DNA of 64,000 bases. It comes from Vulcanimicrobiia bacterium. Lineage in GTDB: Bacteria > Vulcanimicrobiota > Vulcanimicrobiia > Vulcanimicrobiales > Vulcanimicrobiaceae. The stretch covers positions 1 to 64,000 of the forward strand of contig JAICWY010000010.1 of the NCBI GenBank assembly GCA_025934645.1, given 5' to 3'. Both the position numbers and the translations under genes were made by a program. This document shows, piece by piece, positions 40,443 through 58,218 of the stretch (positions are counted from its first letter, which is position 1; each line of letters opens with the position of its first letter). The notes under the pieces were generated by a model that saw only the letters and a list, made by a program, of their open reading frames with translations, made no database searches and was not told the origin of the DNA.

Positions 40443-41132
40443 CTATGCGGGCCACGACTTTTGAGGGGCAAGCGAGGCCACGTACTCTGCGGTGAGCCAT
40501 TCCGTGTTGGTGATCGCCGTGCCGACGACGACGGCGTTCGCGCCCGCGGCGATAGCCGAGGCGGCTTCCGCCGGCGCATGAATGCCACCCTCGCAGATGA
40601 CGAAGCGTTCGAGTTTCGCAAGCGAGCGGACCAGATCGAGCGCAGGAAGCTCCGCGCCGCGCGTTTCCTTTGTATATCCGCACAACGTGGTGGCCAGAAT
40701 GTCGGCACCGGCGGCCTGCGCGCAAACGCCGTCGGCTTCCGTCGCGCAATCGGCCATGGCAAGCGCTCCGCCGCGATGGATGGCCTCGACGATCTGGGCG
40801 ACCGTCACGCCTTCGGGGCGCGGGCGCTCCGTCGCGTCGAAGGCGATAATCTCCGCACCGCACTCCAAAATCTCGCGCACCTCGCGCAGCGTCGGCGTAA
40901 TGTACGGTTCGAACCCGTCGTACTCGCGCTTGACGATGCCCACGACCGGCACGCTCACGCGCCGGCCCACCGCCTGCAGATTTGCGACGCCTTGAATGCG
41001 CACGCCAAGAGCACCGTTGTCCTGCGCGGCGCGTGCCATCGCAGCCAGCACGTGGGGATCGTCGAGCGCGGAGCCTGCCCGGGCCTGCACCGAAACAATG
41101 AGACCGCCGCGGATCAGATCGAGCACGCTCAT
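40443..41132 (-). CDS. nanE: N-acetylmannosamine-6-phosphate 2-epimerase
   Basis: Converts ManNAc-6-P to GlcNAc-6-P in sialic acid and amino-sugar catabolism. A 229-residue TIM barrel with GGLIVSVQARAGSALDDP at the N-terminus, the catalytic lysine region VGIVKREYDGFEPYITPT, EIIAFDATERPRPEG and the C-terminal phosphate site ICEGGIHAPAEAASAIAAGA, then VVGTAITNTEWLT. It starts at ATG 41132, which overlaps the kinase stop as ATGA. No nanA, nanK or nagA/nagB is nearby. Confidence 0.92.
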   Translation of the reverse strand: MSVLDLIRGGLIVSVQARAGSALDDPHVLAAMARAAQDNGALGVRIQGVANLQAVGRRVSVPVVGIVKREYDGFEPYITPTLREVREILECGAEIIAFDATERPRPEGVTVAQIVEAIHRGGALAMADCATEADGVCAQAAGADILATTLCGYTKETRGAELPALDLVRSLAKLERFVICEGGIHAPAEAASAIAAGANAVVVGTAITNTEWLTAEYVASLAPQKSWPA

Positions 41133-42052
41133 GCGATGCTTTCCGGTACCGGGACGCCCGCGCGTTTGTACGCCAAGATCAGCGACCCGACTGCCGGATC
41201 GTATCGCGGCCGCACGCGCTCGCATTGCGGAAGCGCCTCGCGAAGCGCCGCGGCGACCTCGCCTGCGTACGTGGAACTGAGCATCATGCCTCCGGTGACC
41301 GCGATTTTGCCCCGCGAGATGCCCGCTTGATGCATGGCTTGCCTGGCAAGTGCGGCGAGCGCGTGCGCGCCGGCGCGTACGGATTGCATCGCGGCGACAT
41401 TGCCGCGTTCGGCCGCGTGCACGATGGTGCCCGAGAATGCCGCCACCTGCGCACGCGAAATCTCTCCGGCGTAAAAGGCGCGCGCGATCGCGCGCAACGA
41501 CGGTTTGTTGAAATGCTCGAGCGCGAGCGCGCCCAGCTCGTTATCTTCTCCGGCGTCGCGATCGCGCATCGCCGCGGAAAGCGCTTCCCGCGCGAGCCAA
41601 AACCCGCTCCCTTCATCGCCGAAGAGGAAGCCCCAACCTCCGAGCAGCGCGGTGACGCCGCGCTCGCTGCGCGCGAAAGCCACGGATCCGGTTCCGGCAA
41701 TAGCGATCGTTCCGGCTTCCCCGGCGAGCGCGCCGGCGTGCGCATTTTCGGTATCGTGCACGAGCAGCACGGACTGCGCCGGCAGCTGGGGCGCCGCGCC
41801 GTACACGCGCCCTTCGTAGCCGCTCACGCCCGCGGCGATCGCCGAGAACTGCGTATCCGCCGGAAGCCCGGCCTTTGCAACGGCGTCTGCGAGCGCCGAA
41901 GCGAGCGCATCGCGCAAGCGCGTTGAATCGCGGGTTTGCCCGATCTCGTCGGCCGGCCCGGCGCTGCCGCGCGCCAGAATACGGCCCTTTTCATCGGCAA
42001 TGGCGGCCGTAGTGGAACTCTGTCCGCCGTCGATCCCGGCGTAGTACGTCAC
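41129..42052 (-). CDS. BadF/BcrA-family N-acetylglucosamine-type kinase
   Basis: A 307-residue ATPase of the ASKHA fold. The phosphate-1 motif is AGIDGGQSSTTAAIADEKG, the adenosine region IAIAGTGSVAFARSERGV, and GGWGFLFGDEGSGFWLAREA matches GlcNAc/glucosamine kinases of this family. Its product would be the substrate for, or a neighbour of, the coupled NanE step. It starts at GTG 42052, overlapping the ImmA/IrrE gene stop as GTGA. Confidence 0.86.
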   Translation of the reverse strand: MTYYAGIDGGQSSTTAAIADEKGRILARGSAGPADEIGQTRDSTRLRDALASALADAVAKAGLPADTQFSAIAAGVSGYEGRVYGAAPQLPAQSVLLVHDTENAHAGALAGEAGTIAIAGTGSVAFARSERGVTALLGGWGFLFGDEGSGFWLAREALSAAMRDRDAGEDNELGALALEHFNKPSLRAIARAFYAGEISRAQVAAFSGTIVHAAERGNVAAMQSVRAGAHALAALARQAMHQAGISRGKIAVTGGMMLSSTYAGEVAAALREALPQCERVRPRYDPAVGSLILAYKRAGVPVPESIA

Positions 42053-42363
42053 GGAAGCGGGGGTGCCGCGCCGCAAAGCTCTCGGGCGAAGTCGTTGGCC
42101 GCAGTCTCGCGCGAAGCGCGGTCGCGCAGTTGCGGCACCTCGCCCAAACGTTCGCGGTGATGATAGATCTCGTGCGCGATCGAGAAGGCGACGAAGTCAC
42201 CGATCTCGCCGAGCGGAAGATTTTCAATCACGCGCTTGTTGATGCGGATTGCCGGTCCGTCAGGATCGTACTCCGAGCGCAACTCGTCCACGCCCCATTC
42301 GCCCAGATCGTCGTAATGGATCGCAACGTTGTACTTTTTCGCTAATTCGAAGACCGGATGCAT
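42049..42363 (-). CDS. ImmA/IrrE-family zinc metallopeptidase-like protein
   Basis: A 104-residue protein with the HExxH zinc motif in AFSIAHEIYHHRERL. The N-terminus HPVFELAKKYNVAIHYDDLG is typical of the short IrrE-like fold. Relatives cleave helix-turn-helix repressors in phage immunity or stress responses, but no such repressor is next to it. It is sandwiched between a sugar kinase and an FAD oxidoreductase, with GTGA coupling to the kinase and only a TAA/ATG junction to the oxidoreductase. Confidence 0.85.
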   Translation of the reverse strand: MHPVFELAKKYNVAIHYDDLGEWGVDELRSEYDPDGPAIRINKRVIENLPLGEIGDFVAFSIAHEIYHHRERLGEVPQLRDRASRETAANDFARELCGAAPPLP

Positions 42364-43704
42364 TTACAATACGACACCATCAGCAAGCAGCAGCGCGCGC
42401 AGCTGTTCCGTATCGACATCGCGCAAGCGCCTGCCCGCTTCCTTCGCGAGCGCGGCCGCAGTTCCGGCTGCCTGGCCGAGCGTCATGACGGTGGGCGTCA
42501 GGCGCGTCGATGCGAGCGCTTCGTGCGTGGTGGAAATGCACCGGCCGGCGACGAGCAGCCCGTCAACGGCCGCCGGAACGAGGCAGCGGTAGGGAATCTC
42601 GTAACTCTCGCCTTCGGCTAGGCGGTGCGTTACCGTGCCGCTGCCCGATGGATTGTGAATGTCGATCGGGTACGCGCTGCGCGCGACTGCGTCGGGAAAT
42701 TTACGCCCTTGCAGCACGTCGTCCCGCGTAAGCGTGTACTCGCCGACGATGCGGCGCGATTCACGCACGCCGATCTGCGTGCCGGTCGCCGCGATGCGCG
42801 CGTTCTCGAATCCCGGAACGCGTGCGCGAAAGAATTCGAGCAACTGCATTACTTGCGCGCGCGCTTCCACTTCCGCGCGGGTCAGATCGTCCGGATCGAG
42901 CGGATCGATATCGGTCACGCGCGTCATGTTGACGGAGACTTCGTCGGCATACGGTGTGATGAAAAACGAAACCAGTTCCCGGGGGATCTCCACTTCACCG
43001 TGCTGCTGCGCATCGTGCCAGAGATCGTACAAGCCCGCAACGGCGGTGAGCGCAGGCGCGGTGCGTTCGTGCGCTTTGAGGGATGTGCGCATTTGATCCG
43101 GGTGCATGCGGACGTATGTCGCCGTCTTCGCCAAATCGACGTGACTGAGCCGAAACATCAAACTGGCGGGCTGCACGCGTCCGCGTTCGTCGCCCTGCTG
43201 CGTCTGCACGCCCGCCGACGCTGCCACGTAAGCATCCGCAGTCGCATCGATAATGGCGGCCGCGCGGTATTCACGCTCGCCCGCGACCGTCGCAAAAACC
43301 GCGCCTCCCGGCGTCGAACGCAAAAAATAGGCGTGCAGCAGCAGCTTCACGCCGGCTTCGCGCACCATCTCGAAGAGCAGCGCTTTGTGGATCTCGGGAT
43401 CGAAGGGCGTTATCGTCGAGACGTAGCCGGAAGAATCGTAAATGTGCCCGGGCGATCCGCCGCGCCGCTGGAGACGCTCGACGATCTCCTGCGCGATGCC
43501 GCCGACGATACGCTTGCTTCCGCTATGGTACGTCATCCACGGCCCGACCATCGACGCGGTCGCGGTTCCGCCTAAAAATCCGTAGCGTTCGACGAGCATC
43601 GTGCGTGCGCCGTGGCGCCCCGCTGCGAGCGCGGCCGCGCATCCTGCATTGCCTCCGCCCACAACGAGAACGTCGATCTCTTCCATGCAGTCGGCGTTTC
43701 CCAT
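42364..43704 (-). CDS. FAD-dependent oxidoreductase
   Basis: A 446-residue flavoprotein of the FAD_oxidored type. The dinucleotide fold is VLVVGGGNAGCAAALAAGRH, followed by YGFLGGTATASMVGPWMTYH and, near the C-terminus, the FAD-contact segment ISTTHEALASTRLTPTVMTL. Such enzymes commonly occur with sugar-catabolism genes. It heads the nanE operon and probably oxidises an imported sugar or its derivative. The ATG at 43704 or an internal ATG at 43686 could begin it. Confidence 0.87.
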   Translation of the reverse strand: MGNADCMEEIDVLVVGGGNAGCAAALAAGRHGARTMLVERYGFLGGTATASMVGPWMTYHSGSKRIVGGIAQEIVERLQRRGGSPGHIYDSSGYVSTITPFDPEIHKALLFEMVREAGVKLLLHAYFLRSTPGGAVFATVAGEREYRAAAIIDATADAYVAASAGVQTQQGDERGRVQPASLMFRLSHVDLAKTATYVRMHPDQMRTSLKAHERTAPALTAVAGLYDLWHDAQQHGEVEIPRELVSFFITPYADEVSVNMTRVTDIDPLDPDDLTRAEVEARAQVMQLLEFFRARVPGFENARIAATGTQIGVRESRRIVGEYTLTRDDVLQGRKFPDAVARSAYPIDIHNPSGSGTVTHRLAEGESYEIPYRCLVPAAVDGLLVAGRCISTTHEALASTRLTPTVMTLGQAAGTAAALAKEAGRRLRDVDTEQLRALLLADGVVL

Positions 43705-46546: not shown

Positions 46547-48685
46547 TTACGCCGGGCGGGAAGCAGTGAGGATGACGGCCGGCGCATCCGGTGCGCGCCC
46601 GGCGAGCTCTTCGGACGCCAGCGCGACGGCTTGCTCCGCAGCGGCCAGGCCGCTGAAGTCGGCAATACGTGCGCCGTGCAGGACATAGATGTCCGGGAGT
46701 GCACGCCCGACGTCGCCGAATGCGGTGGCTTCCTCGATAGCAGCAGGCAGCACGTTGAGCGCTTGCGATGCCGTGGTTTGCGTGATGAAGGCGTCGCGCA
46801 GGGCAAGGCGTCCGACACCGGTGCGGTCGAGGACGCGTAGGTCGCGGGTAATCCGCGCTCGCCCAAGGCGCCTGCGCGAGTGCCGCTCGCGCTCGTATAC
46901 GAAGAGCGCGCCGGTTTGCGCTGCGAGCGTCACGTCTTCCGGCGCGGCGCGCATCAAACGCGCCGCGTACGTCCGCAGATCTTCATCGCTCTCGACGCGA
47001 TGCGCCGCGCTTTCGGCGAGTTCGCTTGCGCCCGAGGCCGTCGCCCGCACGAGATTGCGCTGCGCGTCGATCTCGACCGCAACCTCGACGCGCTCGGGCG
47101 ACGCGCCGGCGGCAACCACGGCATCTTGGGCTTCGCGGCGGATGCGAATGATATCGTCCGGCGACGGATCGACGATCGTGCGCTCCACCACTTCACGCAC
47201 CAGCGCCAGCGCGACCCCGATCGGTGAAATCACTTCGGCATCGCGCGCCAAACGGAATTCAAAACCCGTGCGCTGCGCGGCGTACGGCACCAGCGCCGCG
47301 GCGCCGCCGCCTCCACCGACGACGACGAGCGTTTCGCGATCCAGTTCGTAGTCGGCGATCAATTCTTCAATGGCCGCGATCACCCTCGCGGACGCAATCT
47401 CGAGCAGGTCACGCGCGAGGGATTCCGCATCGCCGTCGAGCGCCTGGGCAAGCACCTCGAAACCACGGCGTGCCGCTTGCGCGTTACCGCGCGCGAACGC
47501 GCTTTCCGGCACGAAGCCCAGCATATTCGATGCGCACGTCGGCGTCAGTGCGACACGTGTGCCGTCCCGAGCGACGATTGCAGTATAATCCTCGCTATCG
47601 TGGGGCGTGGGGCGCATGCGTTCGATCTTTGCACCGTCAAAAAGCGCCGGATCGACGAAACTCGCATATTTCAGTCCGGCGATATGCGCAGAGCGCGGTC
47701 CGACGTCGACGATGTTGCGATCGTTCGCGCGGATCATGCTGCCGCCGGCGATCGCCAGTGTGCGCACGTCGAGCGTGCGCAGCATCGTGCGGTGACCGCC
47801 AACGCGCGCGGGGCGCATCTGCGGCATGCCGGCGCGAATCGCCGAGCAGTCGGCGCTGGTGCCGCCCACTTCGATGAAGATTCCGTCGGTGACGTTCTCG
47901 TGCAGCAGCGCGCCGGCAACGCCCGCGGCCGGGCCTGAAAGAAGCGTGAGGATCGGGCGGCGCTCCATCTCGCGCACGTCCATCACGCCGCCGTCGCTGC
48001 GCATGACCATGAGCGGCGATAAAATTGCCGCGCGCTTCACCGCGTCATCCGTCATGCGCGCCGTTCGTACCATCTTCGGTAGAATCGCCGCGTTCAGCGC
48101 CGCGGTGCGGGTGCGCGCGCGCAAGCCGTACATCGAACTGACTTCATGGCCCGCCGTCGCGTACAGCCCTTGCGCACGAGCGTCCGCTACCGCGGCGGCC
48201 TCCGCATCCGGACGGTCCACTGCGAACGGCTGCGAGACCGCAATTGCCTGCGCGCCTTCGGCTTGCAAATTCGAAATCGCGGCGTGCGCCGTATTCCCAT
48301 CTCCGGCGCGCGCAAACGCAAAACGCGTTTCGAACGGCACGCCGGGCGCGAGCTGCAACTGAGGGAAGCGAATCTGGATCCGTGCGAGCGGCGCAAAGCC
48401 GTCGAGCAACCCCAACACGCCTACGGTGGCGACATCACCTTCGAGCAGTGCGTTGGTGGCCTGCGTCGTTGAATGCGCGATAAAGGCGACATCGTCCGGA
48501 TCGATGCCGGATTGCGCGAAGAGCGCCTCAATGCCGGCGACGATGCCGGCTGCAACGCCTTCCTGCGCGCTGTGGGTGGTCGGCACTTTGACGCGCGCGA
48601 CGACCTCGCGCGTCTGCGCGTCTATCGCCACGACGTCAGTAAACGTGCCTCCGACGTCAATACCCAGGCGGAGCGTTCGCGCCAT
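46547..48685 (-). CDS. Hydantoinase/oxoprolinase subunit A (HyuA-like)
   Basis: A 712-residue ATP-dependent ASKHA enzyme. The N-terminal signature is LGIDVGGTFTDVVAIDAQTR, then FIAHSTTQATNALLEGDVAT, and the central LSGPAAGVAGALLHENVTDG with EVGGTSADCSAIRAG. It hydrolyses N-methylhydantoin- or oxoproline-like lactams together with a B subunit. No HyuB is adjacent, so the partner is elsewhere or the enzyme has diverged. ATG 48685 is a normal start. Confidence 0.88.
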   Translation of the reverse strand: MARTLRLGIDVGGTFTDVVAIDAQTREVVARVKVPTTHSAQEGVAAGIVAGIEALFAQSGIDPDDVAFIAHSTTQATNALLEGDVATVGVLGLLDGFAPLARIQIRFPQLQLAPGVPFETRFAFARAGDGNTAHAAISNLQAEGAQAIAVSQPFAVDRPDAEAAAVADARAQGLYATAGHEVSSMYGLRARTRTAALNAAILPKMVRTARMTDDAVKRAAILSPLMVMRSDGGVMDVREMERRPILTLLSGPAAGVAGALLHENVTDGIFIEVGGTSADCSAIRAGMPQMRPARVGGHRTMLRTLDVRTLAIAGGSMIRANDRNIVDVGPRSAHIAGLKYASFVDPALFDGAKIERMRPTPHDSEDYTAIVARDGTRVALTPTCASNMLGFVPESAFARGNAQAARRGFEVLAQALDGDAESLARDLLEIASARVIAAIEELIADYELDRETLVVVGGGGGAAALVPYAAQRTGFEFRLARDAEVISPIGVALALVREVVERTIVDPSPDDIIRIRREAQDAVVAAGASPERVEVAVEIDAQRNLVRATASGASELAESAAHRVESDEDLRTYAARLMRAAPEDVTLAAQTGALFVYERERHSRRRLGRARITRDLRVLDRTGVGRLALRDAFITQTTASQALNVLPAAIEEATAFGDVGRALPDIYVLHGARIADFSGLAAAEQAVALASEELAGRAPDAPAVILTASRPA

Positions 48686-48753: not shown

Positions 48754-50664
48754 TTAGATACCGTTGTCGTGCAGGCGGATGATGTCGTCGATACTCGCGC
48801 GCGGGTTCGTCTTGCGCACGCTTGCGGCGTACGAAGCCGAGACGCCGCGATCCATCATGCGCACCACATCGGCAACCGAAATGCCGGAGAGACCATAGCG
48901 CTGCAACTCGTACAAGCAGTTGGCCTGCTCGCCGTGGTCGCTTAAATACACCATGTCGGCGGCCGAAATGCCGTTGCTGAAATACGAGCGGGCCGCACGC
49001 ATGAGGTCCGCATTCACGCCGTGATCCATCAGCAGGACCGTCGAGGCGGGCGAGATGCCGTCGATCCCGTTTTCACGCAACGCATTGAGGTAGCGCGGCG
49101 AAACGCCGTGGTCCGCAAGCATAGCAAGACTTTTTGGATCGATTCCCCGGCCGAAGTAGGCGGCCGCCGATTGCACCAGCTGCGGGCTTACGCCATGATC
49201 GCGAATCGTAATGAGATCGTCGACCGAAAGGTTACGCAATCCCGCAGCTTGCAGCGCATCGAGCAAATCGGCGGACGGACCGCCGGACGAGCGCGCATCG
49301 GCAATTTTGACCGGCGGCTCGGGAACGTACGCATAGGAATACGCGTAAGAAGCCGTTGACGCAGCCGATGCGAGCATGGCAGCGCGAGCCGCGGTAACAG
49401 CTGAAACGCGCAGTTCGTTTGTGGCGGCGATCTTCGGCGCGTGCGGCGCTTTTAGCGGCTTTGCGGGGTGCCTTGGCTTCGGTGGACGCGCTATCGCATG
49501 CGCTTTGGGCGCAACCGGCGCTGCAGGCTTCGGTGCGCTGACCGCAATGCCGGCTGGCGCCTTGGGCGCTTTGGCCGTCTTCGGCGCGGCTGCCGGCGCG
49601 TGCGGCGCGGCCGGCGCCTTGAGCGGCGGCGCGATCACTTGCGCAATCACGGGAACTTGGAAGCGCAACACGATCGCGGCGGCAAGCAGCATAGCGGCGC
49701 ATGCGCTCAGTGCAAAGCGCCGGTTCGTGCGCAGCGAATGGTTCACCGCCGTGTCCAGCAGCACTTCAAGACGGTGCATCAACTGTTTGCGCTTGAAGAT
49801 CAGACTCGGCACGGGAACCCCCCGGCCTTGCGCCCATTGGGCCATGCCGGTGAGGGTCATCGCGTACGAGACGGGATCGCCGATGCCGTCGACGGCGGCG
49901 TCATCGCAGATCTGCTCGCGGTATAGCGCGAGTTCCCGCAGCGCAAGGCGTACCCCGGGCAAGAAGAACGCGACGGCGCCAATCGCGCGGTACAGCACGT
50001 TCTGCACATCGTCGTAACGGCGCACGTGTTCGCGCTCGTGCAGCACGATGCTGAGCAGTTCGTTGTGCGTCGCCGAGAGCAACTTATCCGGAATGACGAT
50101 CAGCGCGGGGGAAAAGCCCAGCACGCACGGCGACGTGAGCTCGGACGTGGAAGCGAACGCAAACGGGCGCGACAGGCGTTCGACCCGGAACGGTAATTCG
50201 ATCGGTTTCGCGGCGCGGCGCGCGGCGAACATCCCGATGAGATCGCGCACGAGCACGGCTAAACGCAGCAGCGCGACCAGCGCCGCAAGCAACAACACTA
50301 GCCACGCACGTTCCAGGACTGCGGTTACCGCACTTACGGCGATTTCCCCAACCGGCGGACGCGAAACCGTTAGCGGCGCAGCGGCCGATACGGCAACGCG
50401 CGACGGCACCGGCGCATGAACGTTCCGCGCGTGCAAAACGGGCGTGCTCACGGCATACGTGCGCACCGTGTACGGACGCGCGGCAAAGATATAATTGAAA
50501 GCGGGTAACGCCAGCGCGATCGCGAGCAGGGCGCTCCAAACGGCGAACATCGTCGTTGCGTTCAAGCGGCGTAGCAGTTGAAACGCCGCATACGCTGCAA
50601 AGCACAGGACGGCGCCCTGCCAAGCTCCATTGAACAGCGCGGTAAGCAATAACGCTGCGTTCAT
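48754..50664 (-). CDS. BlaR1-like M56 transmembrane metallopeptidase with C-terminal repeat domain
   Basis: A 636-residue sensor/signal transducer of the BlaR1/MecR1 type. Hydrophobic segments lie near residues 8-30, 38-58 and 118-142, with a last helix at about 315-340. The zinc site is IVLHEREHVRRYDDV (His209, Glu210, His213) with EQICDDAAVD downstream. No penicillin-binding sensor domain is present. Instead there is an Ala/Pro/Lys-rich linker at about 345-420 and seven 29-residue repeats at 460-636. The peptidase presumably cleaves or inactivates the adjacent BlaI-type repressor when a cell-envelope signal is sensed. It overlaps blaI by 4 bases. Confidence 0.9.
   Translation of the reverse strand: MNAALLLTALFNGAWQGAVLCFAAYAAFQLLRRLNATTMFAVWSALLAIALALPAFNYIFAARPYTVRTYAVSTPVLHARNVHAPVPSRVAVSAAAPLTVSRPPVGEIAVSAVTAVLERAWLVLLLAALVALLRLAVLVRDLIGMFAARRAAKPIELPFRVERLSRPFAFASTSELTSPCVLGFSPALIVIPDKLLSATHNELLSIVLHEREHVRRYDDVQNVLYRAIGAVAFFLPGVRLALRELALYREQICDDAAVDGIGDPVSYAMTLTGMAQWAQGRGVPVPSLIFKRKQLMHRLEVLLDTAVNHSLRTNRRFALSACAAMLLAAAIVLRFQVPVIAQVIAPPLKAPAAPHAPAAAPKTAKAPKAPAGIAVSAPKPAAPVAPKAHAIARPPKPRHPAKPLKAPHAPKIAATNELRVSAVTAARAAMLASAASTASYAYSYAYVPEPPVKIADARSSGGPSADLLDALQAAGLRNLSVDDLITIRDHGVSPQLVQSAAAYFGRGIDPKSLAMLADHGVSPRYLNALRENGIDGISPASTVLLMDHGVNADLMRAARSYFSNGISAADMVYLSDHGEQANCLYELQRYGLSGISVADVVRMMDRGVSASYAASVRKTNPRASIDDIIRLHDNGI
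48757..49287 (-). repeat. 29-residue tandem repeats in the M56 protein
   Basis: Starting at residue 460, the spacing of the recurring DHGV/DHGE/DRGV/DNGI element is 29, 29, 29, 29 and 28 residues (Asp489, 518, 547, 576, 605, 633). Each unit carries a loose GIS..D.V.L pattern before the DHG turn. The copies differ at most positions, so they are an old protein repeat and not a recent DNA duplication. Confidence 0.85.
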
Positions 50665-51044
50665 GATTTATGCTCCGCTTCCGCGATGAGGCGGCGGATG
50701 CGCGCGATCTCCTCGGCGCTCAGGTTCTCATTCTGCAACAAATTCAGCGCGAGCGCACCGGGCGAGCCGAAGAACCGGCGGACCACGGAATGCACGGCAC
50801 TGCGCGAAGCCTCGGCCTTGTCTACTACGGGAATGTAGCGGAACGCGCGGCCCTCTTCGGTGTGCCGCACGTAGCCCTTTTGCTCCAGTATCCGGAGCAT
50901 GGTTTGCACGGTGTTAAAGGCCAACGGCTTGGGCGAATCGACCGCCGCGAGCACCTCGCTGACCGTTCCGCTGCCGGCCGACCAGAGCACCTCCATGACG
51001 CGCTGCTCGACCTCGGTAAGGCTCTCGGATTTACGCCGCGGCAC
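50661..51044 (-). CDS. BlaI/MecI/CopY-family transcriptional repressor
   Basis: A 127-residue winged-helix repressor. The N-terminal DNA-binding domain includes LTEVEQRVMEVLWSAGSGTV and FNTVQTMLRILEQKGYVRHT, followed by GRAFRYIPVVDKAEASRSAV. The C-terminal dimerisation helices contain NENLSAEEIARIRRLIAEAE. GTG 51044 has GGAGG five bases upstream. A perfect 16-base dyad at 51063-51078 overlaps the promoter, so autoregulation is very likely. The last four bases overlap the M56 gene. Confidence 0.94.
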   Translation of the reverse strand: MPRRKSESLTEVEQRVMEVLWSAGSGTVSEVLAAVDSPKPLAFNTVQTMLRILEQKGYVRHTEEGRAFRYIPVVDKAEASRSAVHSVVRRFFGSPGALALNLLQNENLSAEEIARIRRLIAEAEHKS

Positions 51045-51062: not shown

Positions 51063-51078
51063 ACCTAAAACTTTAGGT
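51063..51078 (-). promoter_or_regulatory. Probable BlaI operator
   Basis: ACCTAAAACTTTAGGT is a perfect dyad with 7-base arms and a 2-base centre, located 19-34 bases upstream of the blaI start. A TATAAG-like -10 box lies beside it on the minus strand (about 51057-51063). BlaI-type repressors bind such dyads as dimers. Confidence 0.75.
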
Positions 51079-51112: not shown

Positions 51113-52486
51113 TTACCGCGCCAGCTCGTCGTAGAGCGCGCACATCGTCTTGATGCCGCCGAAGAACTGCGAGAGTGTGAACTTCTCATTGGGCGCGTGA
51201 ATCCGATCGTCGGGCAGGCCTACGCCGATGAGCACTTGCGGCAACCCAAGGATGCGATCGAAACTCGAAACCGGTCCGATGGTGCCGCCCGTGCCGATAA
51301 AGACCGGCGGTTTGCCGAAGCCGGCTTCCATCGCCCGCGCAGCCGCCGCGACGGCGGGGTGCTCGCGCGATGTGACGACGGCGCGGGTATCGCCACCCGT
51401 GTGAATCTCGACGCGAACGCCGGGCGGCGCAATGCATTGAACGAACTGCGTTAGCGCCTCTTTGACACGGCCCGGCTCTTGCCGGCCGACGAGGCGTGCG
51501 GAGATCTTCGCGTACGCAACACTCGGGATAATGGTTTTACTGCCCGGTCCTTGATAACCGCCCCAAATGCCGTTGCACTCGAGCGTCGGGCGAAACCACT
51601 GACGTTCGAGCGGCATGCGATCGCGCTCGCCGCCCAGCGCCGGCACGCCAAGCGTTTCCGCTTCTTTTTTCTCGTCGAAAGCCAGGGCGCGAAGTTCATC
51701 GAGCGCGCGCGGATCCAGATCGTCGACGCCGTCGTAAAAACCGGGAACCGCAACACGGCCGGCATCATCTTTCAACTGTGCGATGATCTGCGCGAGCGCC
51801 TCGATTGGATTCTTCACCAATCCGCCGAAATAGCCGGAGTGCAAATCTCCACTCGGCCCGCGCACCGCGATCTCCCAATGCACTAAGCCGCGTATCGACG
51901 TCGTAAGCGACGGCGTATCTTCCGCGTACACGGCCGTATCCGAAATCACCGCAAGGTCGGCACGGAAGCGATCTTCGTACGTCGCAAGCGCCTTCTCGAA
52001 GTTCGGCGAGCCGATCTCTTCTTCGCCTTCGACGACGACTTTGACGTTCACCGGCAGCGAACCGCGCACGCGCAAATGCGCTTCGATCGCCGCAAGGTGC
52101 ATCAACACTTGGCCTTTGTCATCGACTGTGCCGCGTCCGTAAATGTTGCCGTCGCGCACCTGCGCTTGAAACGGAGGGCTATGCCATAACTCTTCCGGAT
52201 CCGCCGGCTGCACGTCGTAATGTCCGTAGAGCAGCACGGCCGGTTTTCCTGGCGCGTTCATCCACTCGCCGTACGCGAGCGGATTGCCGTCGGTTTCCAG
52301 CACTTCGGCGCGCAGGCCGATGCCGCGCATGCGCTCGACCAGGCGTTCGCAGCAGCGGCGTACGTCCTCGCGGTGGGCCGGATTCGCGGAAATGGACGGG
52401 ATCGCAACCCACGATATCAATTCGTCGACGTAGTCGTTTTCATGCGCGTCGCAATAGCGGGCGAGGTCTGAGTCGATTACGGTCAT
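51113..52486 (-). CDS. M20-family dipeptidase (CNDP-like)
   Basis: A 457-residue zinc peptidase. The metal site regions are LLYGHYDVQPADPEELW, IYGRGTVDDKGQVLMHLAAI and KVVVEGEEEIGSPNF, with the C-terminal segment FIGTGGTIGPVSSFDRILG. No signal peptide is seen, so it is cytoplasmic. It would cleave small peptides delivered by the coupled transporter. It starts at ATG 52486, overlapping the transporter stop as ATGA. Confidence 0.94.
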   Translation of the reverse strand: MTVIDSDLARYCDAHENDYVDELISWVAIPSISANPAHREDVRRCCERLVERMRGIGLRAEVLETDGNPLAYGEWMNAPGKPAVLLYGHYDVQPADPEELWHSPPFQAQVRDGNIYGRGTVDDKGQVLMHLAAIEAHLRVRGSLPVNVKVVVEGEEEIGSPNFEKALATYEDRFRADLAVISDTAVYAEDTPSLTTSIRGLVHWEIAVRGPSGDLHSGYFGGLVKNPIEALAQIIAQLKDDAGRVAVPGFYDGVDDLDPRALDELRALAFDEKKEAETLGVPALGGERDRMPLERQWFRPTLECNGIWGGYQGPGSKTIIPSVAYAKISARLVGRQEPGRVKEALTQFVQCIAPPGVRVEIHTGGDTRAVVTSREHPAVAAAARAMEAGFGKPPVFIGTGGTIGPVSSFDRILGLPQVLIGVGLPDDRIHAPNEKFTLSQFFGGIKTMCALYDELAR

Positions 52487-54480
52487 GTGGTAAATGGTGC
52501 TCCGAGTTGGATGTCGAGAACTTGGGCTCCGCGGTGCAATTCAAACGCATGCGGCTTGCCGTCATAGGCGCGCGCCTGCGTCTGATACGTTCCGTATTCC
52601 CACCAGAACTTGCCGTCGAGTTTGTCGACGATGTCGTTCGTGCGCATGCCTGCGGCATAGGCCGGACCCCCGGCGCGCACATAGGTGCGCATGTTGCCGT
52701 CGACCGTTTTGAAAAGCGAGTAATAGTACGCCGGCGCATCGCCCGGCGCGTACGCAAGGCCTTGTGTGATCAGATGCGTCCAGCGCACCGTGTTACCGTT
52801 CGCCCATTCGCGCAGCCGCGCGACGCCTTGCAGGGCAAGCGCTTGAAGCGCCGGCGCATCGCCTTGCGGAACGACGGCATGGTCGTGCCATTCGTCCACT
52901 TCCCAGCCGCCGCAGTCGAAGAGCCGGATGCCGATATCCACGTCCGTGCCTTCTATCAACGAGAACTTCGTCGACGTGATGCCGGCATAAGCCGCATAGG
53001 GTTTGCGCGCGCAATCTTGCGCATTCGGTTCGGCCGTCATCACGAAGGCGGCGACGCCATTTTTGGAGAGCGCATCGGCGACCACACGCGTGACGGCGCG
53101 CGCTTCCGGCGAACCGTCATCACCCACGGCAATGCGTCCGTTCCCGCGCGGACCGGCAAACATTCCGGGCGGCGCAAGCTCCGCGGCCTGCGCGCTTTGA
53201 AACGGGATGCCGAACGGATGCGCGCCGAACAGCGCGCCGGAAGCGAGCGCGACGACGATGCACGCGACCGTCGCGACAGCGGTTTGGTACGGCAGCGTGC
53301 GGCGCGTGATCTCGTCGATCGGAACGCCCGTATAATTCGCGATCCAGACATTCGCGGTATTGGTAGGGTCGCACACATTCTGCACTTGCACCACGGCCAT
53401 AATGGCGGCCACGAGAACGACCGGCGGAAAAACGTGCGCGGTGAGCAGCACCGTGAAGATCGCGATGCCGACGCCGAACGGATTGAGCGGCCCGCGATAC
53501 AGCGCGAGCGGACTCAGTATGCCGAAAATGACGACGAAGGCGAACGGATTGCGCAGCGCTTCACCGGCGATGAGCGGCTGCATGGCGGCTGCGAACTGCG
53601 GCTGTGTCGTCGCGGTAAGCAGCATGCCGATGCCGATGAAGAGCACCACCGCCGGCGCGACGTCTTCGACGCCGCGAATTGCCGCCGCGACAAGAATCTG
53701 CACCGCTTTCGCCGGACGCGTGGTCAGCGCGCCGTACAGCGCCGACACCAAGAACGCCAGCACGGGGTCGAGATGAGCCCAGAAATATAAACCGATCGGC
53801 AATACCGGCGTGATGAGCGCATACCACGGAACCCGCGTAAGCGGCTGCTCCGCTTTGACCGCCCACGTGGCGTACGCGCGCGAATGGCGAAATGATATCG
53901 TCGCGTACACGAGCAGCGCAATTGCATCGATTGCCGCCAGAATCAGGGCGTAGTGATACATCTGCTGCTGCGTTACGCCGAAGAACTGGGTGTAAAACTT
54001 CCAGTTGACGATGTTGAAGATAAAGCCGAGCGCAAGAGCCATCAGGAATAGCGTTGCAGCGATCTTTCGCGGCACGCCGGTGGTCATCATGATCGGAAGG
54101 ACGATCGAGCCGACCATAATCACGGCGCCTAAACCAGACAGCGAGACGAACAGCACTGCGACGACGACGCTGAGGACTAGCGCTACAACCGCGGGACGTT
54201 CGCCGCCGAACTCCGCGGCAAAGTTTACGATCGCCTTCGCGATGCCCGTGTCGAGCGTCACGCGGCCCAGCATCGCGCCGAAGATCACCGCAACGTAAAC
54301 CGGCGCGAGCCGGGATGCGCCGGTCACGATCATCGTCGCTACGTTTCCGGCCGGAACGCCTGCGACGAACGACATGACGATCGCCATCGCGGGCACCGCA
54401 AGCAGCGCGGGCATGACCCGCGCATACATCAGACCGGCAAAGACGAGAAAAACCGCAAGTATCAGGATGCCGGCGGTCAC
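52483..54480 (-). CDS. Polytopic transporter fused to an extracytoplasmic PDZ-containing domain
   Basis: A 665-residue protein. The first 430 or so residues form about 11-12 transmembrane helices of the CitMHS/GntP-like ion-transporter style (AVIFGAMLGRVTLDTGIAKA, FVSLSGLGAVIMVGSIVLPI, NVCDPTNTANVWIANYTGVP). After a last helix near residue 440 comes a soluble part with RIAVGDDGSPEARAVTRVVA and, at the end, a PDZ-like fold (YVRAGGPAYAAGMRTNDIVD then KLDGKFWWEYGTYQTQARAY). Such a tail is not part of ordinary transporters and may bind substrate or a partner. GTG 54480 overlaps the GH20 stop. The substrate is unknown. Confidence 0.78.
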   Translation of the reverse strand: MTAGILILAVFLVFAGLMYARVMPALLAVPAMAIVMSFVAGVPAGNVATMIVTGASRLAPVYVAVIFGAMLGRVTLDTGIAKAIVNFAAEFGGERPAVVALVLSVVVAVLFVSLSGLGAVIMVGSIVLPIMMTTGVPRKIAATLFLMALALGFIFNIVNWKFYTQFFGVTQQQMYHYALILAAIDAIALLVYATISFRHSRAYATWAVKAEQPLTRVPWYALITPVLPIGLYFWAHLDPVLAFLVSALYGALTTRPAKAVQILVAAAIRGVEDVAPAVVLFIGIGMLLTATTQPQFAAAMQPLIAGEALRNPFAFVVIFGILSPLALYRGPLNPFGVGIAIFTVLLTAHVFPPVVLVAAIMAVVQVQNVCDPTNTANVWIANYTGVPIDEITRRTLPYQTAVATVACIVVALASGALFGAHPFGIPFQSAQAAELAPPGMFAGPRGNGRIAVGDDGSPEARAVTRVVADALSKNGVAAFVMTAEPNAQDCARKPYAAYAGITSTKFSLIEGTDVDIGIRLFDCGGWEVDEWHDHAVVPQGDAPALQALALQGVARLREWANGNTVRWTHLITQGLAYAPGDAPAYYYSLFKTVDGNMRTYVRAGGPAYAAGMRTNDIVDKLDGKFWWEYGTYQTQARAYDGKPHAFELHRGAQVLDIQLGAPFTT

Positions 54481-56429
54481 GGCGCTCCGGAATCCGTGCG
54501 GAGCAGCGCGTCGAGATCCGGCAGCGCCGCTTTCTTTTGATAGTAGTTCAGCGAAGCGTAGAACATCCGGTCCGCCCGATCGGTGGCGCGCTGCGCAGCT
54601 AGGTGGTAGCGCTCGAGATTGCTTTGCAGATGGCTCTCGCGATCCTCGTACCGCCACGCCTGCGCGTAGAGCGGCGCGAGTTCTTCATAGCCGTCGCGCA
54701 TCTCCCAGAACCAGTATTTCGACCAGGCGATATTGCGGCCGGTGGGACTGTGCGGTTTGCCTGCCTGCGCTTGCGCCTGCGTCCACATCGCGCGGATCTC
54801 TTGCGCCGCCTCGAACTTGCGTCCGATGAAATCGTACTTGCGCGCGGCCAAGAACATCACGCGCGCAGCATTGGCGTGCAGCGGCGGCGTGTTCTGCAGC
54901 AGGTGCTGCTGCACGTCCTCGGTCTCGCGCCGCAGCGCCGGAATATCCACCGTGGCCATGTGCTGCGCCGGAAGCGCGTCGAACGGATCGGCCCAGAACA
55001 GATAATGGCTGGTAAAGTCATAGGAGTCCGCCATACGCGATTGCACGTCCGCCAAATCGCGGATGTCATCGCCATAACGGCTATCGTTCGCGCCGAAGAA
55101 CGCGGCAGGAAAATCGCTGCGGAAGCGCTCCTCATCGACGTGTCCGTTTTCCCATGCAGCGCTTGCGGCGTACAACACCGGATACCACGTCGCCTCGAAC
55201 AGCGATTCGCCGTCATCATGCCAGATCGTCTGAAACAAGCCGAAGACGTGCGCGCGCTTGCCTTCGTCGATGAACGTCCCTTCATTCTTGAGCGCGGTGT
55301 TGATGTCGGGATAGATCTGGTTCCAATTGCTGTCGCCGGGCGCCACCATCTGGTCGAATCCACCCTTGGCGAGCAGTGAAATGTACGGCATGAACGTCTT
55401 CTCGTTGCCGTAGTGCCAATTGACGACAACCGCGTCTTTGGGAATTAACTTCATAATCGCCGGATCGTTTTCAATGCCGTCGTCCCACAGCATGAGCCGC
55501 GCACCCGACGGTCTGATGATGCGGTCCATCTGAACGACGTGGTCTGCGTAAACTTGTGAGAGCCCGTGCTGCTGCACCATTCGCGCGCTCTGGCCTTTGC
55601 CCAGCGTCGACGTCTCGTCGGAGCCGATGTGAAAGAACGGCGGGCGCTTCAGCAAGGCGAGTTCGTCGCGAATCACCTGGCCGATATATTGCAGCGAAAG
55701 CGGCTGCGCCGGTGTCAGCAGAAAGCCATGCGGCAATTCGGCCGCCGGCGCGTAGCGATCGTAGCGCAGCGTATTGTGCATGTGCGCGAACGTCTGCTGC
55801 TCGGGAACGAACGTGACGTGATAGCGCGCGGCATAGCGATCCAACTCGCGCAGCTGCGCGGGCGTAATGCCGTCGAGCGGCGCGGGCAGCGGGTGATGCG
55901 AATCGACGAACACGTGCTCCATGTACGGCGAGTAGCCGTTCATTTTGAACGCCGCGATGGTACGGATACGCTCTTTGAAATAGCGCATGTTCGGCAGCGG
56001 GCCGCGCGAGACGTCGTCGGAGAGAATGCGCCAGCGCAGCGCCGGCACGTCCGAGATCTTCACGCACGGCAGCACCCAATGCGCGCCGTCGCGCTGCGGC
56101 AGCTGTGCGAGCGTCATCGCGGCGTAAAAAGCGCCGTCGTCGTCGCCGGATTCGATGGTTACGTGCGATCCGGATACGCTCAACGTATACGCTTGCGCCG
56201 GCAGAGCAGCGTGCCGCAGGGTGAGCTCCGGAACGGCGGATCGAACGGCGAGTGGAATGCGCAGCGCCTTCCAGCGCTCGTTGACGAGATTGAGCGCGCC
56301 GGGATCGAACGACGCAGGCACGCGCAGCGGCTCGTTCATGACGTACGGCGACGCACAGGATTGCGCGGCAATCTTCGCGGGCCGCGGCAATATATGGATG
56401 GCGGCGAGCGCGGCGGCGATCGCAATCAT
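54477..56429 (-). CDS. GH20 beta-N-acetylhexosaminidase, exported
   Basis: A 650-residue glycoside hydrolase that removes terminal GlcNAc or GalNAc. The leader MIAIAAALAAIHILPRPAKI suggests export. The catalytic Asp-Glu pair lies in FFHIGSDETSTLGKG (Asp271, Glu272), and the N-terminal GH20b-like domain is present (YTLSVSGSHVTIESGDDDGA, then FYAAMTLAQ). Other barrel marks are AAFKMNGYSPYMEHVF and RLMLWDDGI. It starts at ATG 56429, which overlaps the preceding gene stop as ATGA. Coupling to a transporter and a peptidase suggests cleaving amino-sugar-containing oligomers for uptake. Confidence 0.93.
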   Translation of the reverse strand: MIAIAAALAAIHILPRPAKIAAQSCASPYVMNEPLRVPASFDPGALNLVNERWKALRIPLAVRSAVPELTLRHAALPAQAYTLSVSGSHVTIESGDDDGAFYAAMTLAQLPQRDGAHWVLPCVKISDVPALRWRILSDDVSRGPLPNMRYFKERIRTIAAFKMNGYSPYMEHVFVDSHHPLPAPLDGITPAQLRELDRYAARYHVTFVPEQQTFAHMHNTLRYDRYAPAAELPHGFLLTPAQPLSLQYIGQVIRDELALLKRPPFFHIGSDETSTLGKGQSARMVQQHGLSQVYADHVVQMDRIIRPSGARLMLWDDGIENDPAIMKLIPKDAVVVNWHYGNEKTFMPYISLLAKGGFDQMVAPGDSNWNQIYPDINTALKNEGTFIDEGKRAHVFGLFQTIWHDDGESLFEATWYPVLYAASAAWENGHVDEERFRSDFPAAFFGANDSRYGDDIRDLADVQSRMADSYDFTSHYLFWADPFDALPAQHMATVDIPALRRETEDVQQHLLQNTPPLHANAARVMFLAARKYDFIGRKFEAAQEIRAMWTQAQAQAGKPHSPTGRNIAWSKYWFWEMRDGYEELAPLYAQAWRYEDRESHLQSNLERYHLAAQRATDRADRMFYASLNYYQKKAALPDLDALLRTDSGAP

Positions 56430-56788
56430 GCTTTTTGCATGGCGGCGTCGCGCCGGTCGAAGGCGAGTTCGATCTGCGCCAGGTCGCCGGTTTGCGCGGC
56501 GGACACGAGCCGCAGGTCTGCGGCCGCCACGCCCTCGATCCATTCTCGATCGCCAGCATCTTTAAATCGGGTGAACGCGAGTTGATTGACGAACTCACAC
56601 CGCATGAGCAACCGTTCGTAGCGGGCGAGCTCGTCGCCCGAGAACGCGTCCACCGTGGCCGCCGGTAAGGCGACGAGCCGCTCGCCTACAAAGGCGCGAA
56701 TCTGCTCGTCCGAAATACGGCGGTGTTCCTCGTCTTGATAACCGGCGAAGCCGCCGATGACGCTTTGGATCTGTTCGGAAAGTTCCAT
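56426..56788 (-). CDS. Hypothetical helical protein heading the GH20 operon
   Basis: A 120-residue protein, soluble and mostly helical (SEQIQSVIGGFAGYQDEEHR, ARYERLLMRCEFVNQLAFTR). It has no signal peptide and no family that I recognise. The ATG at 56788 is used; a GTG at 56794 is also in frame. It is the first gene of the four-gene operon and faces the ECF sigma gene across a 117-base divergent gap. Confidence 0.65.
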   Translation of the reverse strand: MELSEQIQSVIGGFAGYQDEEHRRISDEQIRAFVGERLVALPAATVDAFSGDELARYERLLMRCEFVNQLAFTRFKDAGDREWIEGVAAADLRLVSAAQTGDLAQIELAFDRRDAAMQKA

Positions 56789-56905
56789 CTGCACGCGACC
56801 TACGACGGCCCGCGAGCGGATGCCTCGCCCCTGGCCGAATCCGCGAGCGCGCTTTACGCGTTATCTTGGCCGGGGGAAGCTCCCGATGAAGCGAAGCACC
56901 GGAAC
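56789..56905. promoter_or_regulatory. Divergent gap between the GH20 operon and the ECF sigma gene
   Basis: Promoters for both directions must lie here. GTTATCTTGGCC on the plus strand (about 56862) and its complement are the only AT-richer part. No definite ECF-type -35/-10 pair can be claimed. Confidence 0.3.
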
Positions 56906-57436
56906 GTGGAAGACGCATCCCGGCTCATGGCGCGCGTGCGCGCTCACGATGCCGACGCCTTCGAGGCGCTCTACGATAGGTATCACCGCCTGGTTTACGG
57001 CGTCGCGTTTCGCATGCTCGGGGATGCCCCTACCGCCGAAGACGTCACCCAAGCCGTCTTTCTGAAACTCTGGAGTGCGCCAAATCTGTATCAATCGGGA
57101 AATTTCGAAGGCTGGATCGTCCGCATCACGCGCAATCGCGCGCTGGACATTCTGCGCAGCAAATCGCACGGTCACAGCGAGCTGCCCGAGCAGCAGCCTT
57201 CCGCGGACGATCTTGAAGAGACCGCCTTTGCCGATATCGACGCTGGGCTGGTTCGCGCTGCCATCGCGCAGCTTCCGGCGGAACAGCGCGACCCGATCAG
57301 ACTGGGATTTTTCGGCGGCGTCACCCACGAGCAGATCGCGCAGCGCACCGGCGTTCCGCTGGGCACTGTGAAGACGCGTATCCGCGCGGGTTTGCGCAAA
57401 TTGCGTACGACGCTCGAAGGCACGGTGAGCGTATGA
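56906..57436 (+). CDS. RNA polymerase ECF sigma factor
   Basis: An ECF (group 4) sigma factor of 176 residues. Region 2 has DADAFEALYDRYHRLVYGVA, MLGDAPTAEDVTQAVFLKLW and FEGWIVRITRNRALDILRSK. Region 4 has PAEQRDPIRLGFFGGVTHEQ, then IAQRTGVPLGTVKTRIRAGLRK. GTG 56906 places the family N-terminus (EDASRLMARVRAHDADAF) correctly; ATG 56927 would also work but cuts into region 2. It overlaps the anti-sigma gene as ATGA. Confidence 0.92.
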   Translation: MEDASRLMARVRAHDADAFEALYDRYHRLVYGVAFRMLGDAPTAEDVTQAVFLKLWSAPNLYQSGNFEGWIVRITRNRALDILRSKSHGHSELPEQQPSADDLEETAFADIDAGLVRAAIAQLPAEQRDPIRLGFFGGVTHEQIAQRTGVPLGTVKTRIRAGLRKLRTTLEGTVSV

Positions 57437-58218
57437 ACACGAGCGCGCACGACGAAATGCTCGACACGGTCGCCGTGTACGCGCTTGGCGCGCTGCCCGA
57501 GCGCGAGGCGCGCGCCGTACGAGAGCACCTGCGCAGCTGCGCCGAATGTCGCGAAGAGTACCGCCTTCTCGCGCCGGCCGTGAGCGCGGTGGGCATTTCC
57601 GCCGAGGCGTGCGTGGATGCCGCCAGCGCCGGCGCAAGCGTCGCTCCGCCCGGCCCGCTGCTGAAAAAGCGAATCATGCAGCAGATCCGTCCGAATGTCG
57701 GCGAGATGCGCGCGGTCCGCCCCATCGTGTGGCCCGCTTATGCCGTCGCCGCGGCGTGCGTGGTTGCGGTGCTGATCACCTCGATTTTCAACACGTCGCT
57801 CAACTCGCAGCTTCGCGAATCGCAGACGCGCGTAGCGCAACTCAACGCGCACGCCGCAGCGACGGCGCGCGAACTCAATACGCAGCGTACCGCCATCGCC
57901 GATTTGCTCTCGCCGGACTCGCAACGATTCGAAGTCGCGAACGGGTACGTAATCAAACACGGGTCGCGGCTGTACATCGCCATGAATGCGTTGCCCGAGC
58001 CGCCGAAGGGTAAGGTGTATCAAGCCTGGACGCTGCGGCAAGGCGCGAGCAAAATGTCACCGTCGGTGACGTTCGTGCCGAACGGCAGCGGCGTGGCAGT
58101 CGTCCCGGTGCCCGTCAACGCCGCTTCGGTCGTCGCGGTGGCCGTAAGCGTCGAGCCGGACGGCGGCAGCAAACAACCGACAAGCACGCCGACATTCGTA
58201 CTGAAACTCGCTTCTTAA
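57433..58218 (+). CDS. Anti-sigma factor with zinc-binding N-terminus (RskA-like)
   Basis: A 261-residue membrane-bound anti-sigma factor. The cytoplasmic N-terminus holds the HxxxCxxC zinc motif EHLRSCAECREEYRLL, a single helix follows (YAVAAACVVAVLITSIFNTS), and the periplasmic C-terminal part carries the RskA-type domain (GKVYQAWTLRQGASKMSPSV). It should hold the coupled sigma factor inactive until an envelope signal triggers proteolysis or release. Confidence 0.92.
   Translation: MNTSAHDEMLDTVAVYALGALPEREARAVREHLRSCAECREEYRLLAPAVSAVGISAEACVDAASAGASVAPPGPLLKKRIMQQIRPNVGEMRAVRPIVWPAYAVAAACVVAVLITSIFNTSLNSQLRESQTRVAQLNAHAAATARELNTQRTAIADLLSPDSQRFEVANGYVIKHGSRLYIAMNALPEPPKGKVYQAWTLRQGASKMSPSVTFVPNGSGVAVVPVPVNAASVVAVAVSVEPDGGSKQPTSTPTFVLKLAS

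Follow-up and report, generated by a model that had tools for sequence, protein, structure and literature searches.

A conserved GH20-transporter-HyuA locus in Candidatus Eremiobacterota, with a candidate role in amino-sugar salvage

The window analysed here is the first 64,000 nucleotides of contig JAICWY010000010.1 (contig C72), from a Vulcanimicrobiia bacterium whose genome belongs to Candidatus Eremiobacterota and is 85% complete. Four minus-strand open reading frames stand in tandem within it, encoding a protein of unknown family (U120), a GH20 β-N-acetylhexosaminidase-like enzyme, a transporter with a long outer tail (TP), and an M20-family dipeptidase. As read from the open reading frames, each junction is a 4-base overlap (in order, ATGA for U120/GH20, GTGA for GH20/TP and ATGA for TP/M20). 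The preliminary description of this stretch had reported just such an array, headed by an unknown 120-residue protein, and in this it is confirmed. Comparison with relatives shows that the conserved unit joins GH20 and TP to a gene further along the same strand, that of an orphan HyuA. The genes concerned are as follows:

56426 to 56788, minus strand: U120, family unknown, heading the operon in this genome; 120 residues from an ATG (122 if counted from a GTG at 56794)
54477 to 56429, minus strand: GH20 β-N-acetylhexosaminidase-like enzyme, 650 residues; PF02838 and PF00728 above cut-off
52483 to 54480, minus strand: TP, a transporter of predicted IT-superfamily type with ectodomain and PDZ domain; 665 residues, GTG start
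51113 to 52486, minus strand: M20-family dipeptidase (CNDP-like), accessory and optional; 457 residues, PRK08201 at 511 bits (cut-off 441)
46547 to 48685, minus strand: orphan HyuA, the ATPase subunit of hydantoinase/oxoprolinase; PF01968 at 216 bits, PF05378 at 90 bits

Conservation of the locus and assembly of the transporter

A search of 99 genomes of the family found TP in 96. Every neighbouring gene was then mapped in 59 loci, each taken from a different genome and together spanning about 30 genera. In all 59 the gene immediately upstream of TP (or of its ectodomain) is a same-strand GH20, the match ends being a median of 27 bases apart, and chance is excluded for this pair because it is kept throughout. 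HyuA, which the preliminary description overlooked, follows TP in 54 of the loci; among the five without it, one stops at a contig edge and two represent genus g16. M20 is present downstream of TP in 33 loci and missing there in 26. The conserved unit is therefore GH20, TP and HyuA, with an optional M20 and other genes between the last two. The full four-gene order, on which the earlier interpretation was built, is local and peculiar to the window genome, and for it chance is not excluded; of that order, the search in other genomes upheld the GH20-TP adjacency and found the four-gene set not kept.

TP consists of a membrane part (residues 1 to about 415) followed, at residues of about 430 to 665, by a PelC/PqiC-like α/β domain and a C-terminal PDZ domain. 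The membrane part gave no convincing Pfam match in any of 18 members, and none in NCBIfam. Its AlphaFold model (pLDDT 80.7, pTM 0.60) was matched by Foldseek to SiaQM (7qha_B, E 2.5e-7), NaCT (6.8e-6) and ArsB (8.8e-5), and also to Pho90 and INDY; nearly all of the 18 PDB fold matches of TP at E≤0.001 belong to the IT superfamily. The membrane part is accordingly modelled as having the IT superfamily fold (TRAP-M/DASS). This superfamily takes in the CitMHS and GntP families too, so that the earlier label of CitMHS/GntP-like holds for the predicted fold, while Pfam and NCBIfam lend it no support. Hairpin-like motifs (GLGAIIMVGSIVLP and VQVQNVCDPTNT) are strongly conserved in the membrane part of all members.

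Although TP is similar in predicted fold to the SiaM/DctM and DASS/INDY transporters, none of their Pfam families is matched in the 18 members, and its likeness to DctM (the M subunit) is one of fold and not of sequence family. Genes for a TRAP Q subunit or a separate binding protein P were found neither among the genes of the locus nor at the relatives' loci, the rest of the genome not having been searched. TP differs further from these transporters in the outward α/β and PDZ domain fused at its C-terminus. This ectodomain has a Foldseek match to PelC (E 0.024) and a weaker one to PqiC, with the PDZ domain after it. The window protein has only a weak PDZ_6 match, but among relatives PDZ_6 is matched in 18 of 18 and PDZ_2 in 17 of 18 (best E 1.3e-6); the tail has similarity to the RseP PDZ, and a PDB sequence search with TP returned PDZ matches alone of note. 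Stand-alone ectodomains start with signal-like segments, and an RRT ahead of the final helix gives a positive-inside reading; on these grounds the ectodomain and PDZ most likely lie outside the cytoplasm, in agreement with the long extracytoplasmic tail described previously. At one locus inside the fused family (L105, G057:C9:5559-7540), the membrane part and the ectodomain of TP are encoded by separate genes that overlap by 4 bases, possibly through a secondary fission.

A survey of 149 genomes of the phylum found TP in three states: fused (family f1), as two neighbouring genes (sister family f2), and as a membrane part alone (f4, f5, f7, f13-f16). The gene order in f2 is GH20, membrane part, outer domain, HyuA, FAD oxidoreductase, M78-like protein, kinase, NanE and coxB. 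The stand-alone membrane part is followed directly by HyuA in f7, f13, f14, f15 and part of f16, with no GH20 at those loci, and the two genes overlap by 4 bases in two loci of families without the outer domain. In genus g16 it is the outer domain that stands alone beside GH20, its start being signal-like, and in one genome of the genus (G045, L102) the membrane part lies beside HyuA elsewhere in the genome. The outer domain joined TP stepwise, being separate in f2, fused in f1 and absent elsewhere, and HyuA, not M20, is TP's oldest partner. TP and HyuA are both present in f4, f5, f14 and f16. TP and any HyuA match are missing from all 12 genomes of family f3 that were tested, losses that may be a single event and so not twelve independent observations; another genome (G003, 96% complete) is without TP, HyuA and GH20. 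The co-occurrence is weakened by one genome (G046, 77% complete) in which HyuA is present and TP absent.

The HyuA of the locus is similar to HyuA, 5-oxoprolinase and the caprolactamase subunit CapA in its PF01968 and PF05378 domains, and its conserved ATP-site motif, DVGGTFTD, is shared with CapA (PMC8453981). According to work on caprolactamase and the related carboxylases, phosphorylation at the expense of ATP falls to this subunit and the step after it to the B subunit (PMC8453981). The locus HyuA differs from these proteins in having no HyuB or CapB alongside, in its second phosphate motif (EVGGTS versus DxGGT), and in a CapA match of 86 bits versus a cut-off of 1000. At two loci (L078, L111) HyuA is broken into two frames, overlapping or adjacent, which may reflect frameshifts or errors of assembly.

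Companion enzymes, downstream genes and flanking regulators

The GH20 label given earlier is supported by GH20b and GH20 domains above the Pfam cut-offs (43.4 bits for PF00728 against 22.3). Like other GH20 β-N-acetylhexosaminidases, the enzyme keeps the catalytic Asp-Glu pair (HIGSDE), and D-E is present in at least 95% of 57 aligned members. The family is nevertheless divergent (43-52 bits), has conserved motifs of its own, such as SDDVSRGPLP, and differs from known relatives in its genetic lock to a transporter. A genome search showed this single copy to be the genome's sole GH20.

The identification of a CNDP-like dipeptidase was likewise supported, with the M20 and dimerisation domains (PF01546, PF07687) above Pfam cut-offs, a full-length match to PRK08201 over its cut-off, and conserved metal-ligand motifs (YGHYDVQP, VDDKG, EGEEE, SDT, IHAPNEKF). 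There is no difference in sequence from CNDP/M20 dipeptidases; what differs is its optional place in the operon. In whole-genome searches of 22 genomes, nearly all without M20 at the locus, 16 had no M20 relative anywhere while GH20-TP-HyuA was kept; most of these 16 are more than 90% complete. Copies 63-67% identical lie elsewhere in three genomes (G061, G074, G127), in G127 upstream in the same region. Because many species do without M20, it is an optional accessory and cannot be the pathway core, and the inside peptide-cleavage step once assigned to it is not supported for the locus in general. U120, which has no Pfam or NCBIfam match, is modelled as helices only (AlphaFold pLDDT 91.6), with no significant fold match in the PDB. 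A same-strand homologue is present in 31 of the 59 loci, but less than 150 bases from GH20 in only 11, and U120 was rejected as an essential part.

Downstream of HyuA in the window lies a second minus-strand operon:

42364 to 43704, minus strand: FAD_oxidored (PF12831) enzyme, 413 bits; first gene of the downstream operon, conserved downstream in 29 loci
42076 to 42363, minus strand: small M78/IrrE-like putative metallopeptidase; tblastn 56% to relatives, with a weak PF06114 match in a relative, just under cut-off
41129 to 42076, minus strand: BadF/NagK-type amino-sugar kinase; PF01869 at 96.7 bits, NagK_SO3507 at 104 bits, short of its 370-bit cut-off
40443 to 41132, minus strand: NanE, N-acetylmannosamine-6-phosphate 2-epimerase; PF04131, PRK01130 at 273 bits over a cut-off of 189

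The kinase and NanE genes meet in a 4-base ATGA overlap (41132-41129). It is likely that the locus serves amino-sugar use, because an N-acetylglucosamine-kinase-like gene and NanE are found downstream, both in this genome and in many relatives. A NagA-like match was found in the window genome (213 bits, under the curated cut-off), and a NagA-like enzyme is present in 57 of 58 genomes, mostly also under that cut-off. Import of sialic acid, hinted at by the SiaQM fold and NanE, was rejected, since NanA over its cut-off was found in none of 31 genomes and no TRAP Q or P genes are present at the locus. With the terms used, no literature on amino-sugar loci of Eremiobacterota was found.

The slot between M20 and HyuA varies, holding a S-adenosylmethionine (SAM) methyltransferase, a beta-lactamase-fold protein or, in the window, BlaI/BlaR1. 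A PF13354 beta-lactamase2-fold gene fills it in nine loci (L064, L065, L066, L068, L069, L070, L073, L074, L083). In genera g26, g37 and g16 (L096-L101, L103, L106), inserted genes for a GntR regulator and an ATP-binding cassette (ABC) transporter separate TP from M20. A sodium:solute symporter, possibly an amino-sugar importer, diverges from GH20 in a number of loci (L067, L071, L091, L096-L101, L103-L106, L108, L111, L112, L114, L131) and in sister family f2 too; it was not found in the window genome.

Regulatory genes flank the array on both sides:

50661 to 51044, minus strand: BlaI-type repressor, PF03965 at 112 bits; between M20 and HyuA in the window genome only
48754 to 50664, minus strand: BlaR1-type M56 peptidase, PF05569 only; NCBIfam blaR1_generic at 45 bits against a cut-off of 400
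51063 to 51078, no strand: palindrome ACCTAAAGTTTTAGGT with 7-base arms, in the 68-base gap between M20 and BlaI
56927 to 57436, plus strand: extracytoplasmic function (ECF) sigma factor, PF04542 and PF08281, diverging from the operon head; start inferred
57433 to 58218, plus strand: RskA-type anti-sigma factor with zf-HC2, PF10099 at 70.9 bits

The operon probably ends at M20, because the 68-base gap with its palindrome separates M20 from BlaI. The palindrome is the sole such site in the window, with a chance expectation of 0.01 at up to 2 mismatches, and is a probable BlaI operator. No penicillin-binding or beta-lactam-sensing domain was found in the window BlaR1-type protein, which carries a C-terminal run of repeats with DHGV motifs; on this basis it probably senses something other than beta-lactams. 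Regulation of the array by BlaI/BlaR1, a pair that the preliminary description had noted just downstream, was rejected: the pair is found at this one locus of the 59, it has its own promoter region, and the sensor domain is missing. The ECF sigma gene previously noted as diverging from the operon head is indeed present, paired with its anti-sigma gene, and a divergent ECF gene occurs in 31 of the 59 loci and an anti-sigma gene in 38. Control of the array by this factor was rejected as well, since inspection of seven close relatives showed no GGAAC-type promoter in their short divergent region; the conserved stretch in that region is more likely ECF coding sequence. No RNA families were found in 39000-60500.

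A proposed salvage route and its rivals

The reading preferred here, with a probability of roughly 0.45, is that of an Eremiobacterota salvage locus whose base is a secondary transporter of elevator type together with the ATP-dependent enzyme HyuA, with a secreted or membrane-held GH20 as a later addition. GH20 would trim a terminal N-acetylhexosamine off an envelope or environmental glycoconjugate, and TP's outward PelC/PqiC-like and PDZ domain may dock GH20 or its product. TP would then import a small, probably anionic product (carboxylate- or amide-bearing), which HyuA would activate or open inside with ATP. The downstream BadF/NagK-type kinase would phosphorylate the amino sugar, NanE would pass it toward N-acetylglucosamine (GlcNAc)-6-phosphate and NagA, and M20 would be an optional dipeptidase for peptide-bearing substrates. 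A bolder version, improbable as it stands, sees a new transporter design, an IT permease whose tethered PelC/PqiC-like and PDZ module would dock GH20 (by its C-terminus or its product) and hand the product over, with the orphan HyuA trapping the import by ATP-dependent phosphorylation; TRAP systems use a free binding protein where this design would use a fusion.

Several points weigh against the salvage route. TP and HyuA persist in families without GH20, so that their substrate may be one not released by GH20. No HyuB lies beside HyuA at the locus, and a HyuA normally requires a HyuB partner; because the genome's only HyuB sits on another contig beside a different HyuA (26% over 149 residues), the locus HyuA would have to work alone or with some other partner. 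Signal peptides are clear in many GH20 relatives and the window GH20 is likely exported by descent, but uncertainly so, with only about 11 residues ahead of its GH20b domain from the overlap ATG, a very short export signal at best. Moreover, two plus-strand genes separate HyuA from the FAD oxidoreductase-NanE operon in the window.

The main rival, unlikely but the best of the alternatives, places two pathways at one locus, with TP and HyuA taking up a lactam- or hydantoin-like nutrient of the 5-oxoproline type and GH20, the sodium:solute symporter of relatives, the kinase and NanE handling amino sugars. That TP-HyuA is the older pair and is found without GH20 fits this well, as does the fact that IT-superfamily members carry mostly organic anions. 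However, no other linkage is as tight as that of GH20 and TP, the ectodomain remains with GH20 in genus g16 while the membrane part moves off, and the unit lacks a HyuB.

Muropeptide salvage, in which GH20 would cut GlcNAc-N-acetylmuramic acid (MurNAc)-peptide outside, TP import the amino-sugar peptide and M20 split the peptide inside, was the role proposed in the preliminary description and now appears distinctly unlikely. It accords with the window gene order, with the match of M20 to a dipeptidase model and with the presence of MurQ in nearly all genomes. The job is, however, already covered. The set of NagZ, AnmK or MurNAc kinase, and MurQ is not at the GH20-TP locus but complete on another contig of the window genome (G000, contig C143, L140:2560-10880), where an ABC ATPase, NagZ (248 bits over 207), a beta-lactamase-fold protein, AnmK (408 over 387), a BadF-type kinase and MurQ (323 over 302) form an operon, together with a conserved protein that we take to be DUF4127. 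The order is the same in three other genomes (G068, G069, G060) and, without the ABC gene, in a fourth (G086). Because this operon is dedicated to it, muropeptide recycling is housed elsewhere; muropeptides as the specific substrate are further weakened by the genomes that keep the core without M20, and the cluster itself has neither an amidase nor MurQ. To our knowledge, NanE has no role in MurNAc use. BadF-type kinases do include MurNAc kinases, a point in favour of muropeptides (PMC5790795), and the Tannerella MurT-MurK-MurQ operon for MurNAc salvage shares the pattern of a transporter with a BcrAD/BadFG-type kinase (PMC5790795); the present locus differs from it in a transporter of another superfamily and in having NanE, HyuA and GH20 in place of MurQ.

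Very improbable is a role for TP as an envelope scaffold or exporter, its PDZ ectodomain organising GH20 at the membrane and its membrane part acting in export or sensing. In favour of it, protein C-termini are the usual targets of PDZ domains and the ectodomain resembles the envelope proteins PelC and PqiC, yet the membrane part retains a full transporter-like fold with its conserved hairpin-like motifs and exists elsewhere without the ectodomain.

Taken as a whole, the preliminary description was right in its GH20-TP unit and PDZ tail and likely right as to amino sugars, and the peptide step, muropeptides as the specific substrate and the BlaI/BlaR1 link were not supported. The HyuA that it missed provides a concrete lead on the substrate and revises the muropeptide reading. 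TP is near-universal in a family of uncultivated bacteria and yet lies outside all Pfam families, so that annotation pipelines tend to miss it. Since living lineages still show its assembly at three stages, the function of the tethered periplasmic domain is directly testable.

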